Source: Frankia casuarinae
Lineage (GTDB): Bacteria > Actinomycetota > Actinomycetes > Frankiales > Frankiaceae
DNA: 64,000 nt
NCBI RefSeq assembly: GCF_000013345.1
Contig: NC_007777.1
Span: 3,038,001-3,102,000, forward strand
Direction of reading: 5' to 3'
Below, piece by piece: positions 18,696 through 23,306 of the stretch. Position numbers and translations under genes: made by a program. How positions within the stretch are numbered: position 1 is the stretch's first letter; each line of letters begins with the position of its first letter. Below the pieces are notes generated by a model, which searched no databases, had not been told where the DNA came from, and saw only the letters and a list, made by a program, of their open reading frames with translations.

Positions 18696-20144
18696 TCAGC
18701 CGGCGCCGAAGAGCCCCTGCGCGAGAAAGCCGCCCGCGGGCGCCGCGGGCGGGACGGCGAACAGGGCACTGGAGGTGTGCCGGATGAAGGTGTTCAATGC
18801 GTCGCCGGCCGCGAGGGTCCGCTGCACCGCGACGAACGCCGTACGCGGGTCGGCCTGGTAGGCCGCGAAGAACAGGCCGGCGTCCGGCTCGCCGGCTGAG
18901 TCCAGGCCGTCGTCATAGGAGTAGCCGCGACGAAGCATGGCGATCCCACCGTGGAACGACGGGTGGGACAGCCGGACATGGGCGTTGCCGGCGATCGCGA
19001 GACTGCCGTCGGCGGCGCGGGCAGTGAAGTCCGGCTGGATGGTCTCAGCGCCGCCCTGCCCCACCGGCGGTGCCGAGAGCGCGGTACCGTCGGACTTACG
19101 GCGGCCGATGACCGCGCTCTGAGCCGTCTCGTCCAGCCGCGCCCAGGCATCGAGCAGCATGCGGATACGCCGGCAGACCAGGTAGGACCCGTCCCGCATC
19201 CATTCCGGCCCGCTGGACACCCACACCGCCCGGTCGAACCGCGGCGTGCCCGGTCCCGGGTTGTCCGTGCCGTCGATCTGCCCCATCAGGTTGCGTGGGG
19301 TGGACCCGGGGTTGAACGCGGCCGCCGCGGAACGAAGGAATCCCCGCTGGATCCAGCGGGGCCTGGCATCCTGAGCGGCGAGACGACGCATCTGCCGGGA
19401 AGCCGAGACCGCGACCATCGGATCCTCGGCGCAGACCTGCACGCCGAGATCCCCGCCACTGCGCGCCAGATCGAGCTGGTCACCGGGCATCGCGGGAATG
19501 TCCGCGAACTCCGCGGGTATCTGCGCGTCGAGACCGGCGCGGCGCAGCGCGGACGCGCCGAGCCCGATGGTGATCGTCAGCCCCGCCGGTCCGAGTCCCT
19601 GGGTGTCCCGCTCAGCGCCGTCGAGCGGCTCGCCTCGCATCAGCACCGCGGCGGCGGCCGTCCAGGTGCGCAGCACCGCGGCGAGGGATGTGCGGACCGC
19701 GGCCGGGCCGGACGTCGTCAGGTCGTAGGCGGTGAAGACGAGCTGCGCGGGAGGGCGGTCGGCGATTCCGGGCTGGTGACGGCCGTCGCCCACCACCCCG
19801 GCCAGCGCCTCACGACGGACCGCGGCGACGCGGTCCGTCCCGCCCGACTGGTCCTCCTGGGGACGTTCCGCGGCAACGGCGACACCGCCGTCGAGGGCCA
19901 TGACTCCCCCGAGGCCTCCCCCGATCGCGACACCACCGCCGAAGCCGAGCAGCCCGGCGCCCCGCAGCACCCTGCGGCGGTGGGGACCGATCGGGCGGTT
20001 CTCCCGGACCGCATCCGTCGCATCGGCGACATCCGTTACATCGGCAGCGTCCACAATGTCCGACACGCCCGCCCTACCGGCTCTATTGGACATACCAGTT
20101 TCAGCCATACCGGTTCCATCCGTCCTGTCGCTCACGGGATCCAT
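18696..20144 (-). CDS. Tat-exported Dyp-type haem peroxidase
   Basis: The 482-residue DyP-type peroxidase oxidises dyes and aromatics with H2O2. A long, Asp/Ala-rich N-terminus precedes the Tat motif HRRRVLRGAGLLGFGGG near residue 56. The family signature G-x-x-D-G is present as GQIDGTDNPG (catalytic Asp). The proximal His and neighbouring Arg lie in NAHVRLSHPSFHGGIAMLRRGYSY. This type is exported folded with haem, and in actinobacteria such enzymes act in iron uptake or lignin-like substrate attack; no efeU/efeO neighbours are seen, so the exact role is open. The DNA over its last codons has a duplicated 14-bp unit (GCCGGCATCGTTCA). Confidence 0.88.
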   Translation of the reverse strand: MDPVSDRTDGTGMAETGMSNRAGRAGVSDIVDAADVTDVADATDAVRENRPIGPHRRRVLRGAGLLGFGGGVAIGGGLGGVMALDGGVAVAAERPQEDQSGGTDRVAAVRREALAGVVGDGRHQPGIADRPPAQLVFTAYDLTTSGPAAVRTSLAAVLRTWTAAAAVLMRGEPLDGAERDTQGLGPAGLTITIGLGASALRRAGLDAQIPAEFADIPAMPGDQLDLARSGGDLGVQVCAEDPMVAVSASRQMRRLAAQDARPRWIQRGFLRSAAAAFNPGSTPRNLMGQIDGTDNPGPGTPRFDRAVWVSSGPEWMRDGSYLVCRRIRMLLDAWARLDETAQSAVIGRRKSDGTALSAPPVGQGGAETIQPDFTARAADGSLAIAGNAHVRLSHPSFHGGIAMLRRGYSYDDGLDSAGEPDAGLFFAAYQADPRTAFVAVQRTLAAGDALNTFIRHTSSALFAVPPAAPAGGFLAQGLFGAG

Positions 20145-20657: not shown

Positions 20658-21872
20658 CTAACCCTCCGCGCTTCTCCGGGCGACGGGTTCGCCCCGGCGA
20701 CGGGCCAAGCCCCACCGTGCACTCGAGTTCAGTCCGCGCAGCGCCCTGCGCACGGCCGGGTGCTGGCTGACACGGTGCACCGGGTAGCGCCACGGCGGCT
20801 GTTCGCCCTGGCGCGACGCCATCGAGTAGGCGAACGACACCGGATCCTGATCGAGGTATGGGTCCACCCGTTCGAACCAGGCCATGCTCGTCCGCGCCGC
20901 CGCCTGCAGAGGACCCAGGGCCGCCCGGCCCCGCCGGTCGAAATCTCGCAGCGCGGCCGGCAGATCGCCGCCGCTGTCGTACATGCTCTGCGCGAGCGCG
21001 ACCGCATCGACGATCGCGAGCGCCGTGCCCGACCCGAAGGCGAAGTGCGTGGTGTGGGCGGCGTCACCGATCAACACGACGTTGTCGTGGTACCAGCTCC
21101 GATTGGTGACATCGGCGAAGCGCAGCCACCGCGCCGCCCGGCCGCGGCACTGGCTGATCAGCGGATGGCCGTCCAACGGACCAGAGAAGATCTTTTCCAG
21201 CATCCGCGGCGCGTCCTCAGCGCTCAGGAGATCAAGGCCGAGTCCCTTCCACGTCCGCTGGGAGCATTCCACGATGCAGGTGCTGACGCCGACGCTGGAC
21301 GGATAGGCGTGGAACCAGATCCATCCCGCGGAGGTCCGTTCGAAGGCGAAGGTGAAGCTGTCGAAGCGCTTGTCGGTGCCGAGCCAGATGTACGGGTTAC
21401 CGCCGATCTCGACCTTGGTACCGAAATCGTCCTGGGCCAGCTGGCGCACCCGGCTGTTCGCGCCGTCGGACGCCACGACGAGATCGGCGTCGGCATACGG
21501 GCGCAGGTCGTCCACCTCGTGCCGGTACTCCACCTCGACGCCGAGATCGGTAGCCCGCCGGGCGAGGATTTCGAGCAGCGCGGCCCGCTGCAGGCTGAAG
21601 CCGTAGCCGGTGAGATATGCCGCCGACGATCCGCCCAGACTGATCCGCTGTTCCTGCCAGAGAGTGGACGCAGCCCGCAGGGCACGAGCGCTGCCTGGGT
21701 CGTTGCGGAAAAGGACGTCCAGAAGGTTATCCCAGTACACGACCCCCCAGCCGTAGGTCGCCCCGGGCGGGTCGCGTTCGAGGACTATGATCTCCTGGCT
21801 GGCGTCACGGCGTTTCGCCGAGATAGCGAAGTAAAGTCCTGCCGGTCCGCCCCCCACACAGACGATCCTCAC
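20658..21872 (-). CDS. FAD-dependent aromatic monooxygenase (salicylyl-CoA 5-hydroxylase-like)
   Basis: The 404-residue class A flavoprotein hydroxylase has the N-terminal GxGxxG (VGGGPAGLYFAI), a YGWGVVYWDNLLDVL stretch typical of the salicylyl-CoA / anthraniloyl-CoA hydroxylase and VioD branch, VASDGANSRVR (DG motif) and IGDAAHTTHFAFGSGTALAI (GD motif). Substrates of this branch are CoA thioesters of aromatic acids or tryptophan derivatives. GTG 21872 is chosen: GAGGAGG lies 9 bases upstream. The adjacent CoA-ligase remnant favours an aryl-CoA substrate. The Gly/Trp-rich RiPP gene lies 271 bases upstream on the same strand. Confidence 0.85.
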   Translation of the reverse strand: MRIVCVGGGPAGLYFAISAKRRDASQEIIVLERDPPGATYGWGVVYWDNLLDVLFRNDPGSARALRAASTLWQEQRISLGGSSAAYLTGYGFSLQRAALLEILARRATDLGVEVEYRHEVDDLRPYADADLVVASDGANSRVRQLAQDDFGTKVEIGGNPYIWLGTDKRFDSFTFAFERTSAGWIWFHAYPSSVGVSTCIVECSQRTWKGLGLDLLSAEDAPRMLEKIFSGPLDGHPLISQCRGRAARWLRFADVTNRSWYHDNVVLIGDAAHTTHFAFGSGTALAIVDAVALAQSMYDSGGDLPAALRDFDRRGRAALGPLQAAARTSMAWFERVDPYLDQDPVSFAYSMASRQGEQPPWRYPVHRVSQHPAVRRALRGLNSSARWGLARRRGEPVARRSAEG

Positions 21873-21997
21873 CGCAGGTGCCTCCTCTGTGTTCCTCCTC
21901 GGCGTGACCCGGACGGCGGGTGGCAACGACCGTTCGCCGGCTCGTCACCACCGTCGCCCCGGAGAGGAGCACCGCCAGCGGATGTCGTGGTGCCCAC

Positions 21998-22099
21998 TTG
22001 TCGGGTTGCCCGGTTTCCCCGCATTGTCGGGTTACCCCGCGTTGTCGGGTTTCCCGGTTTCCCCGCATTGTCGGATTTCCCGATTGTCGGGTTGACCGA
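21998..22099. repeat. TTGTCGGGTT-type repeat array between RiPP and monooxygenase genes
   Basis: Five head-to-tail units begin with TTGTCGG. Two are nearly identical 26-mers (21998-22023 and 22042-22067), one is 18 bases (22024-22041) and two are 16 bases (22068-22083, 22084-22099). Further weak copies run to about 22137. The array fills most of the 271-bp gap 21873-22143, which holds no gene. Confidence 0.7.
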
Positions 22100-22143: not shown

Positions 22144-22326
22144 TCACCAGCCACCCCAACGACCCCAGCCACCCCAACGACCCCAGCCACCCCAACGACC
22201 CCAGCCACCCCAGTGGCCCCAGCCGCCCCAGTGGCCCCAGCCCCAGCCCCAGCCCCCGAAGAAACCGGTGACCTGCCGGAACGAGCCCTCGGCCCGGAGC
22301 GTCGGTGCCTCATATGTTGCTTTCAT
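22144..22326 (-). CDS. RiPP-type precursor peptide with lasso-like leader and Gly/Trp repeat core
   Basis: The 60-residue product starts at ATG 22326, with GGAGGAAT 7 bases upstream, an excellent ribosome site. The first 20 residues, MKATYEAPTLRAEGSFRQVT, fit the leader pattern Y-x-x-P-x-L-x-x-x-G-x-F-x-x-x-T of lasso-peptide precursors. The remaining 40 residues hold only Gly (20), Trp (13), Arg (3), His (2) and Phe (2), arranged as GGWGxW hexapeptides with x = W, H or R. There is no Asp or Glu in the core, so the lasso isopeptide ring cannot form. No lasso cyclase or protease gene is in the window. Function unknown. Confidence 0.75.
   Translation of the reverse strand: MKATYEAPTLRAEGSFRQVTGFFGGWGWGWGHWGGWGHWGGWGRWGGWGRWGGWGRWGGW
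22147..22236 (-). repeat. 18-bp tandem repeat x5 encoding GGWGxW units
   Basis: Three identical units CCAGCCACCCCAACGACC (22147-22200) are followed by two variants (22201-22236) that change Arg to His codons and drift at third positions. The oldest-looking copies are nearest the leader, so the array seems to have grown at the 3' end of the gene. Confidence 0.9.
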
Positions 22327-22640
22327 GCCGGATTCCTCCGTCCGACTTCGACTTATTCGATCCATGTAACTCTCGGCGATCAAGACGACACCGTGGCTGC
22401 CGTCGGCGTCCCAGCTCCGACCTCCACTTACCGCCTGTGACCAACCATCTTCGATTCTGCCCCTTTGCTGTCCATTGCTGGTTCATCACTGGTTCGGTGG
22501 CACCGGCGGGAGTCGCGGTGGAGACGGGCGCCGATCAAGAAGATCATCGCCGTAGCCGGCCGAAGCCCCGACTCACGGGCCGGCAGCCGTCGAAGGTCCC
22601 ACGCCGCATCGAAGGCGCCCTGCGGGGCCGGACGGGAGCG
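22327..22640. other. Intergenic region upstream of the RiPP gene, 314 bp
   Basis: Relatively A/T-rich for this genome around 22340-22500; it should contain the RiPP promoter on the minus strand and the end of the tetR transcript. No second small gene or RNA is recognised. Confidence 0.4.
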
Positions 22641-23306
22641 TTAGGCGACGTCGCGGTCGCGCGCGTCCTCGGGCAGCAGGGTGCGCAGGCCCAGAATGAT
22701 GTTGGTGATCCCGAACTCGAAATCCTCCGGGACGGTGACGCCGGAAGGCTGCGCCGCCGCGGGGACCGCCGCGGCCGGATCCTCAGCCGGCCGCTCGGTG
22801 AGCAGGAAGCCCCGGGTGTATGTCGAGAGCGTGAAGAAAGCGTGCCAGGCCAGCGACGACGGGAATCCGGCATCCCGCAGCCCAGCCAGCAGTTCCGCCG
22901 CCCGCGGCCAGGAGGTGATGGTCTCCTGGTAGGTCAGACTACCGATACGACGTGCAATCAGGTCGCATTTCAGGTCGTCGACGGCGAGCAGCGCATAGAA
23001 ATTTTTGAAGAACTCGCGGAGCACGTCCTCCCAGGCGTCACCGCGGAGGGCAGGCATGCTCTCATAGAAAGAGACGAGTGCTTCCTCGGCCATGGCATCG
23101 AGGAGTTCTCGCTTACTCTTGAAATACCAGTAGATGCTGGTGACACCGACGTCGAGATACGCGGCCAGGCGGGGCATGCTCAACTGATCTACCGGCGTGT
23201 CCCGACAAAACTCGAAGACGCCCGCCAGAATCCCCGGGGCATTGATGGATCCCCGAGCACGCCGCGACCGGGGGCGCTTCGAGCCCGTGTTCGCCGAGGG
23301 GGGCAC
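22641..23306 (-). CDS. TetR-family transcriptional regulator
   Basis: The 221-residue protein has the TetR DNA-binding domain at residues 25-70 (GILAGVFEFCRDTPVDQLSM, then RLAAYLDVGVTSIYWYFKSK) and a ligand-binding C-terminal region. GTG 23306 follows ATGCGGAGGCTAGC, a good ribosome site. It may control the RiPP-monooxygenase stretch downstream on the same strand or hpnH, which diverges from it; neither is shown. Confidence 0.85.
   Translation of the reverse strand: MPPSANTGSKRPRSRRARGSINAPGILAGVFEFCRDTPVDQLSMPRLAAYLDVGVTSIYWYFKSKRELLDAMAEEALVSFYESMPALRGDAWEDVLREFFKNFYALLAVDDLKCDLIARRIGSLTYQETITSWPRAAELLAGLRDAGFPSSLAWHAFFTLSTYTRGFLLTERPAEDPAAAVPAAAQPSGVTVPEDFEFGITNIILGLRTLLPEDARDRDVA

Follow-up and report, generated by a model that had tools for sequence, protein, structure and literature searches.

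VioD, the indole hydroxylase of violacein biosynthesis, oxygenates the indole ring of tryptophan derivatives. Among ribosomal peptides, the closest described relatives of the locus reported here are the lasso peptides, whose macrolactam ring needs an Asp or Glu at core position 7-9 and whose leaders are bound by B1 proteins and handed to B2 (PMC8498205). Hydroxylated tryptophan is found in RES-701-2 and RES-701-4, lasso-leader peptides that end in 7-hydroxytryptophan (PMC9266682, PMC7280977); these are, however, true lassos with a single hydroxylated C-terminal Trp, and their candidate Trp hydroxylase, ResE, is a protein of 209 aa with no known domain and is not a flavin monooxygenase (PMC7280977). 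A flavin-dependent halogenase on peptidic Trp, known here from a title cited in a lasso review (PMC13352647), is comparable in that a flavin enzyme modifies Trp inside a peptide, but differs in activity, which is halogenation. The locus that we describe pairs a Gly/Trp-repeat precursor with a VioD-type monooxygenase, and in the open-access papers searched on Gly/Trp repeats with flavin enzymes, on VioD homologues in RiPPs and on DUF5972 we found no description of such a pair, although one may exist elsewhere. We file it as a variant of RiPP-like systems that is neither a lasso peptide nor a VioD equivalog.

The features of the locus are collected in Table 1, with positions given in the window, that is, the whole 64,000-nucleotide stretch of Frankia casuarinae DNA that was analysed. 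The original prediction of a 60-codon gene with a good ribosome site held at these coordinates, and the minus strand, which it had not given, can now be added. Its lasso motif and its count of 13 Trp also stood, and the proposed lengths (a leader of 20 residues and a core of 40 with 20 Gly) were off by a single residue. Specifically, with the boundary set by the lasso rule of a Thr at -2, the leader has 21 residues and the core 39, of which 19 are Gly, 13 Trp and 2 His, with no Asp or Glu. The proposed leader-HMM search bore out the lasso-type assignment, as the leader scores 19.3 bits with NF033521 (lasso_leader_L3; curated cut-off 19) and 32.3 bits with Pfam DUF5972 (PF19397; curated cut-off 22.6). 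The Thr at -2 is present in all 33 precursors compared, and the homologues include His-rich core variants such as GHRHHWGRWGHRGHG and HHGGWGWG.

Table 1. Features of the Gly/Trp precursor locus, with positions numbered from the first letter of the window.
Feature	Position	Strand	Description	Basis
Precursor gene	22144..22326	minus	60 codons, 60 aa; ATG at 22326, stop TGA 22144-22146; product MKATYEAPTLRAEGSFRQVTGFFGGWGWGWGHWGGWGHWGGWGRWGGWGRWGGWGRWGGW	Translation and Frankiaceae homologues
Lasso-type leader	22264..22326	minus	MKATYEAPTLRAEGSFRQVTG; Thr at -2	NF033521 and PF19397 above curated cut-offs
Predicted core	22147..22263	minus	FFGGWGWGWGHWGGWGHWGGWGRWGGWGRWGGWGRWGGW; 19 Gly, 13 Trp, no Asp/Glu	Exact cleavage point inferred
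Shine-Dalgarno of precursor	22335..22339	minus	GGAGG, 8 nt upstream of ATG	Sequence
VioD-type FAD monooxygenase	20658..21872	minus	404 aa; GTG start at 21872	Sequence, fold, adjacency
Shine-Dalgarno of monooxygenase	21881..21887	minus	GAGGAGG	Sequence
Imperfect tandem repeat in precursor-monooxygenase spacer	21998..22098		44-nt unit; spacer length 271 nt	Sequence
TetR-type regulator, upstream	22641..23306	minus	Unmatched at related loci; membership doubtful	PF00440

With respect to genomic context, the precursor had been regarded as an orphan, and this view did not survive comparison with related loci, where the flavin monooxygenase gene directly downstream proved to be the only neighbour that is kept as the genomic background changes. 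The TetR, HpnH, ketosynthase and Dyp-type peroxidase genes that flank the pair in the window are not conserved at these loci. In the PDB, the monooxygenase matches VioD chains best, at E 4e-40 and 5e-39, with the next family at 4e-9. A Foldseek search with its AlphaFold2 model (pLDDT 86.7) also ranked VioD first, and VIA-align gave VioD a Z of 39.9 over 347 aligned residues (rmsd 2.3) and the next family a Z of 31.9. VioD is accordingly the closest solved relative by sequence and by fold; it differs from the Frankia enzyme in that identity over the structure alignment is 26-28% and in that the partner here is a peptide gene; the flanking genes scanned included no recognisable VioA, VioB or VioE. 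The VioD equivalog was ruled out as a label by a score of 190 bits with NF053547 (cut-off 620). The NCBIfam model that it matches best, ahead of VioD, is salicylyl-CoA 5-hydroxylase/oxidoreductase (NF006101), of which only the N-terminal half is matched, at 377 bits with a cut-off of 1078. The salicylyl-CoA 5-hydroxylase/aminobenzoyl-CoA monooxygenase enzymes thus supply the closest model for the flavin half and form sister groups in the tree, but the Frankia enzyme has neither their C-terminal oxidoreductase half nor conserved CoA-pathway neighbours. Since neither NCBIfam cut-off is reached and the nearest model belongs to this type, the substrate could be an aryl group other than indole. The ring-oxygenating chemistry predicted from sequence and model is well supported; the substrate is less well supported.

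Within the Frankiaceae, the search for cores in other Frankia genomes that had been suggested at the outset succeeded, in that most Frankia genomes searched, as well as other Frankiaceae genera, carry homologues with the same leader and a Gly/Trp core in an intact frame. The monooxygenase gene is present in 23 of 35 Frankiaceae genomes; of the 19 in which the DNA upstream of it is readable, 18 have a Gly/Trp precursor just before it. The exception, G408, has a different upstream gene, FemAB/GNAT-like by eye, in place of a precursor. In the four further monooxygenase genomes (G002, G003, G428 and G429), a contig end or misjoin falls at or close before the repeat. The sole precursor fragment seen in G429 lies on another contig and is lasso-like, with Asp at core position 8, so that the inclusion of this genome in our summary tallies is generous, its pairing being ambiguous. 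Because several draft assemblies break at the precursor gene, the pair is under-reported. Three genomes (G008, G010 and G012) hold a lasso-leader Gly/Trp precursor with no detectable monooxygenase; apart from these, extra precursors that are unpaired occur mostly in genomes encoding the monooxygenase elsewhere. In G428, contig C191 (L129, about 1185-1300) has an apparent misjoin within a poly-G run located at the repeat. L046, L109 and L112 carry a precursor of a second type (M[TM]AQYEAPALRAQGSFQAVTHGF...), which has a Gly/Trp or Gly/Tyr core and adjoins an MFS transporter gene, with no neighbouring monooxygenase.

Searches of 396 genomes of the phylum with the precursor (P0002) returned low-complexity matches only, and with PF19397 gave ordinary lasso precursors outside the Frankiaceae. 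The wider distribution was traced from the enzyme side, for which the monooxygenase alignment was searched against 84,980 species genomes and the 80 nearest relatives (56-75% identical) were taken. With Gly/Trp frames defined by at least 4 Trp and at least 8 Gly in 25 residues, 46 such frames lie on the same strand in the 500 nt upstream of these relatives, where about 0.2 would be expected; the 80 include Frankiaceae records already counted and near relatives that are not independent observations, and these statistics describe the sample only. A further 10 frames, separated from the monooxygenase gene by an ABC exporter, lie at -2.5 to -2.0 kb, and 5 divergent ones at about +3.3 kb beside an ABC exporter. 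Such frames are almost absent at other positions, and all positions together give a Gly/Trp peptide at 60 of the 80 loci. Among 29 more distant relatives (at most 51% identity), no Gly/Trp peptide was found within 1.5 kb (45 of 80 versus 0 of 29). About ten monooxygenase copies, mostly extra ones in Saccharopolyspora and Pseudonocardia, have no recognisable Gly/Trp peptide nearby, and a looser scan at these partnerless copies found none.

Outside the Frankiaceae, the pair occurs in Nocardia, Streptomyces, Saccharopolyspora, Pseudonocardia and Geodermatophilus, and the N-termini of the peptides differ by lineage. A Sec-like N-terminus is carried by 28 peptides in Nocardia and Streptomycetaceae, and a short M-x-IK-x-x-F leader by those of Pseudonocardiales MAGs and Saccharopolyspora; those of Pseudonocardia and Geodermatophilus have no obvious leader. 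The lasso-leader copies group as a single clade (SH-aLRT 99) within the Gly/Trp-associated monooxygenase family, with the exporter/IK-type MAG copies (96) as their neighbours in the tree. Judged from these sequences, the lasso leader with its Gly/Trp core is the Frankiaceae version of a wider actinobacterial family. As the pairing of peptide and enzyme is conserved while the N-termini differ, the conserved unit is the repeat core with the VioD-type hydroxylase, and the leader has been swapped; a delivery tag that changes between lineages beside a conserved core-enzyme pair suggests that these modified peptides form a family not yet described. Many of the peptides, mostly in the ABC-export/short-leader group, end in a C-terminal Cys (GGWGC or GGWC; L134, L137, L140, L174, L182, L185, L103 and L106).

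In terms of the lasso connection, the original prediction that this is not an ordinary lasso peptide proved correct. No Asp or Glu occurs at core positions 7-9 in 32 homologous precursors, or anywhere in the Frankia core, and an ordinary lasso peptide is ruled out by this lack of a ring acid. The likeness to lasso systems consists of the leader motif Y-x-x-P-x-L-x-x-x-G-x-F-x-x-x-T with its Thr at -2 and of the B1, B2, cyclase and exporter genes found elsewhere in the genome, where the original prediction had proposed to look for them; the difference lies in the missing ring acid, in the 39-residue repeat core with its flavin hydroxylase partner, and in the lack of adjoining lasso genes, as no cyclase C, B1 or B2 gene is present near the precursor in the window or at the related Gly/Trp loci. 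Specifically, the genome (5,433,628 bases) has a complete lasso cluster at about 3.533-3.538 Mb (L048 7586-12355, G000:C1) with cyclase, B1/PqqD, B2 and ABC exporter genes and a precursor, MKAIYLPPRLEDAGSFAAVTN-GRWGWGRDYSWRRFA, whose predicted core is GRWGWGRDYSWRRFA. A second cyclase/B2 pair is also present. At least one B2 occurs in every Frankiaceae genome holding a lasso-leader Gly/Trp precursor, and the four genomes with no B2 have no such precursor; as B2 is found in 31 of the 35 genomes, this co-occurrence is weak evidence for its use in trans. The core of the genome's true lasso peptide starts GRWGWGRD, which resembles the Gly/Trp repeat.

Having both a ribosomal precursor and a conserved partner enzyme nearby, the locus has the marks of a RiPP system, and we favor, with moderate confidence, a two-gene RiPP-like unit in which the VioD-branch enzyme hydroxylates Trp residues of the core and the lasso leader is handled in trans. 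The Gly/Trp repeat would be the substrate region of the precursor, and the flavin hydroxylase would oxygenate the indole rings of several core Trp residues, presumably to 5-hydroxytryptophan by analogy, while the N-terminal part would serve processing and export alone. In the Frankiaceae, the leader may be bound by the RRE protein B1, cut after residue 21 by the B2 peptidase and the product then exported, with B1, B2 and export proteins supplied in trans by the genome's lasso cluster. In other lineages, this task would fall to a Sec signal (Nocardia and Streptomyces) or to a short leader and an ABC exporter encoded alongside (Pseudonocardiales). The probable order is synthesis, Trp hydroxylation, leader removal and export, which would yield a secreted, redox-active peptide rich in Trp and hydroxy-Trp. 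Conservation of the Sec and ABC routes in other lineages suggests an extracellular place for the product, and surface redox, metal-binding or antimicrobial peptides are candidate final roles. The idea that a lasso leader delivers a Trp-rich peptide for some other Trp modification is thereby retained in part: hydroxylation is favored since the conserved partner is a VioD-type hydroxylase, but the lasso leader is only the Frankiaceae version. Trp cross-linking and haem binding, also raised in the original prediction, find no support in these results. In a broader and more tentative formulation, to which we give somewhat less than even weight, the VioD-type enzymes of an actinobacterial class would hydroxylate many repeat Trp residues with no fixed leader by reading the repeat itself, and the product would be an extracellular poly-hydroxytryptophan, possibly redox-active or melanin-like. 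An enzyme reading the repeat in this manner would leave lineages free to exchange Sec signals, ABC-type leaders and lasso leaders for one another.

Of the explanations that compete with core hydroxylation, one holds that the enzyme acts on a small aryl molecule (a CoA thioester, an indole or an anthranilate-like compound), which the Gly/Trp peptide would serve as scaffold, carrier or sensor instead of being the substrate. This would accord with the salicylyl-CoA 5-hydroxylase match, with the bifunctional CoA-pathway enzymes (750-800 aa) found as more distant relatives and with the monooxygenase copies that have no peptide. We nonetheless judge it unlikely: across genera the pair is not accompanied by a conserved CoA ligase, thioesterase or other pathway gene, the Trp-rich repeat is associated with one enzyme clade exclusively, and indole hydroxylases are the nearest structures. 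Alternatively, the Gly/Trp/His peptide might be secreted and act unmodified, in a structural, metal-binding or antimicrobial capacity, beside an enzyme of independent role that shares its regulation. Composition alone can suffice for simple repeats, and the His-rich variants fit such a function, but the pairing is kept across distant genera despite differing surroundings, which is hard to explain with no functional link and makes this reading decidedly improbable.

The remaining alternatives deny the precursor a present function. A chance reading frame in non-coding repeat DNA would find its basis in the 18-nt tandem repeat on which the core hexads rest; we give it practically no credence, as the leader matches a curated family, a Shine-Dalgarno sequence is present and the frames are conserved in many genomes. 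Moreover, the pN/pS of 0.38 for leader codons among 33 precursors and the variable third base of the core Gly codons place the frame under protein-level constraint, and this conservation of leader family, frame and codon pattern refutes a non-coding origin. A degenerate lasso precursor, in which a duplicate kept its leader, lost the ring acid and expanded its repeat, would account for the leader homology and for the GRWGWGRD start of the true lasso core. It is nevertheless very improbable, given that several genera keep the frame, the Thr at -2 and the composition, that the leader is constrained as above and the partner gene fixed, and that Gly/Trp peptides accompany the same enzyme type without any lasso leader.

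If core hydroxylation is correct, the pair would represent a peptide family that is widespread yet has gone unrecognised. The hydroxylation of peptidyl Trp by VioD-branch flavoenzymes would be a new tailoring reaction, and the family would show clearly how one core-enzyme pair can be refitted with unrelated delivery leaders. It would also explain lasso-leader peptides that genome mining labels as lasso RiPPs yet that are unable to form a lasso, and would offer a directly testable enzyme for producing hydroxytryptophan-rich peptides.

Several further observations were made around these loci. Downstream of the monooxygenase, and on its strand, lies a Dyp-type peroxidase gene of the deferrochelatase type (window 18696-20144), which is not conserved at related loci. 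In three Frankia genomes, the monooxygenase is convergent with a gene for a 1408-aa fusion of two mycofactocin-type FadH/OYE oxidoreductases (L038 3985-8211). Asparagine-synthase-like and B2-like genes adjoin a pSAM2-type RepSA replication initiator at L049 (7840-12824). Finally, complete lasso clusters at L111 (G007:C165, 8347, minus) and L113 (G006:C260, 8635, plus) encode unusually long precursors, which begin like a normal lasso precursor (GRWGWGHDYFYRRFGY, with Asp as core residue 8) and continue into a Gly-rich tail of about 30 residues that has FVAGGFFF at its end.
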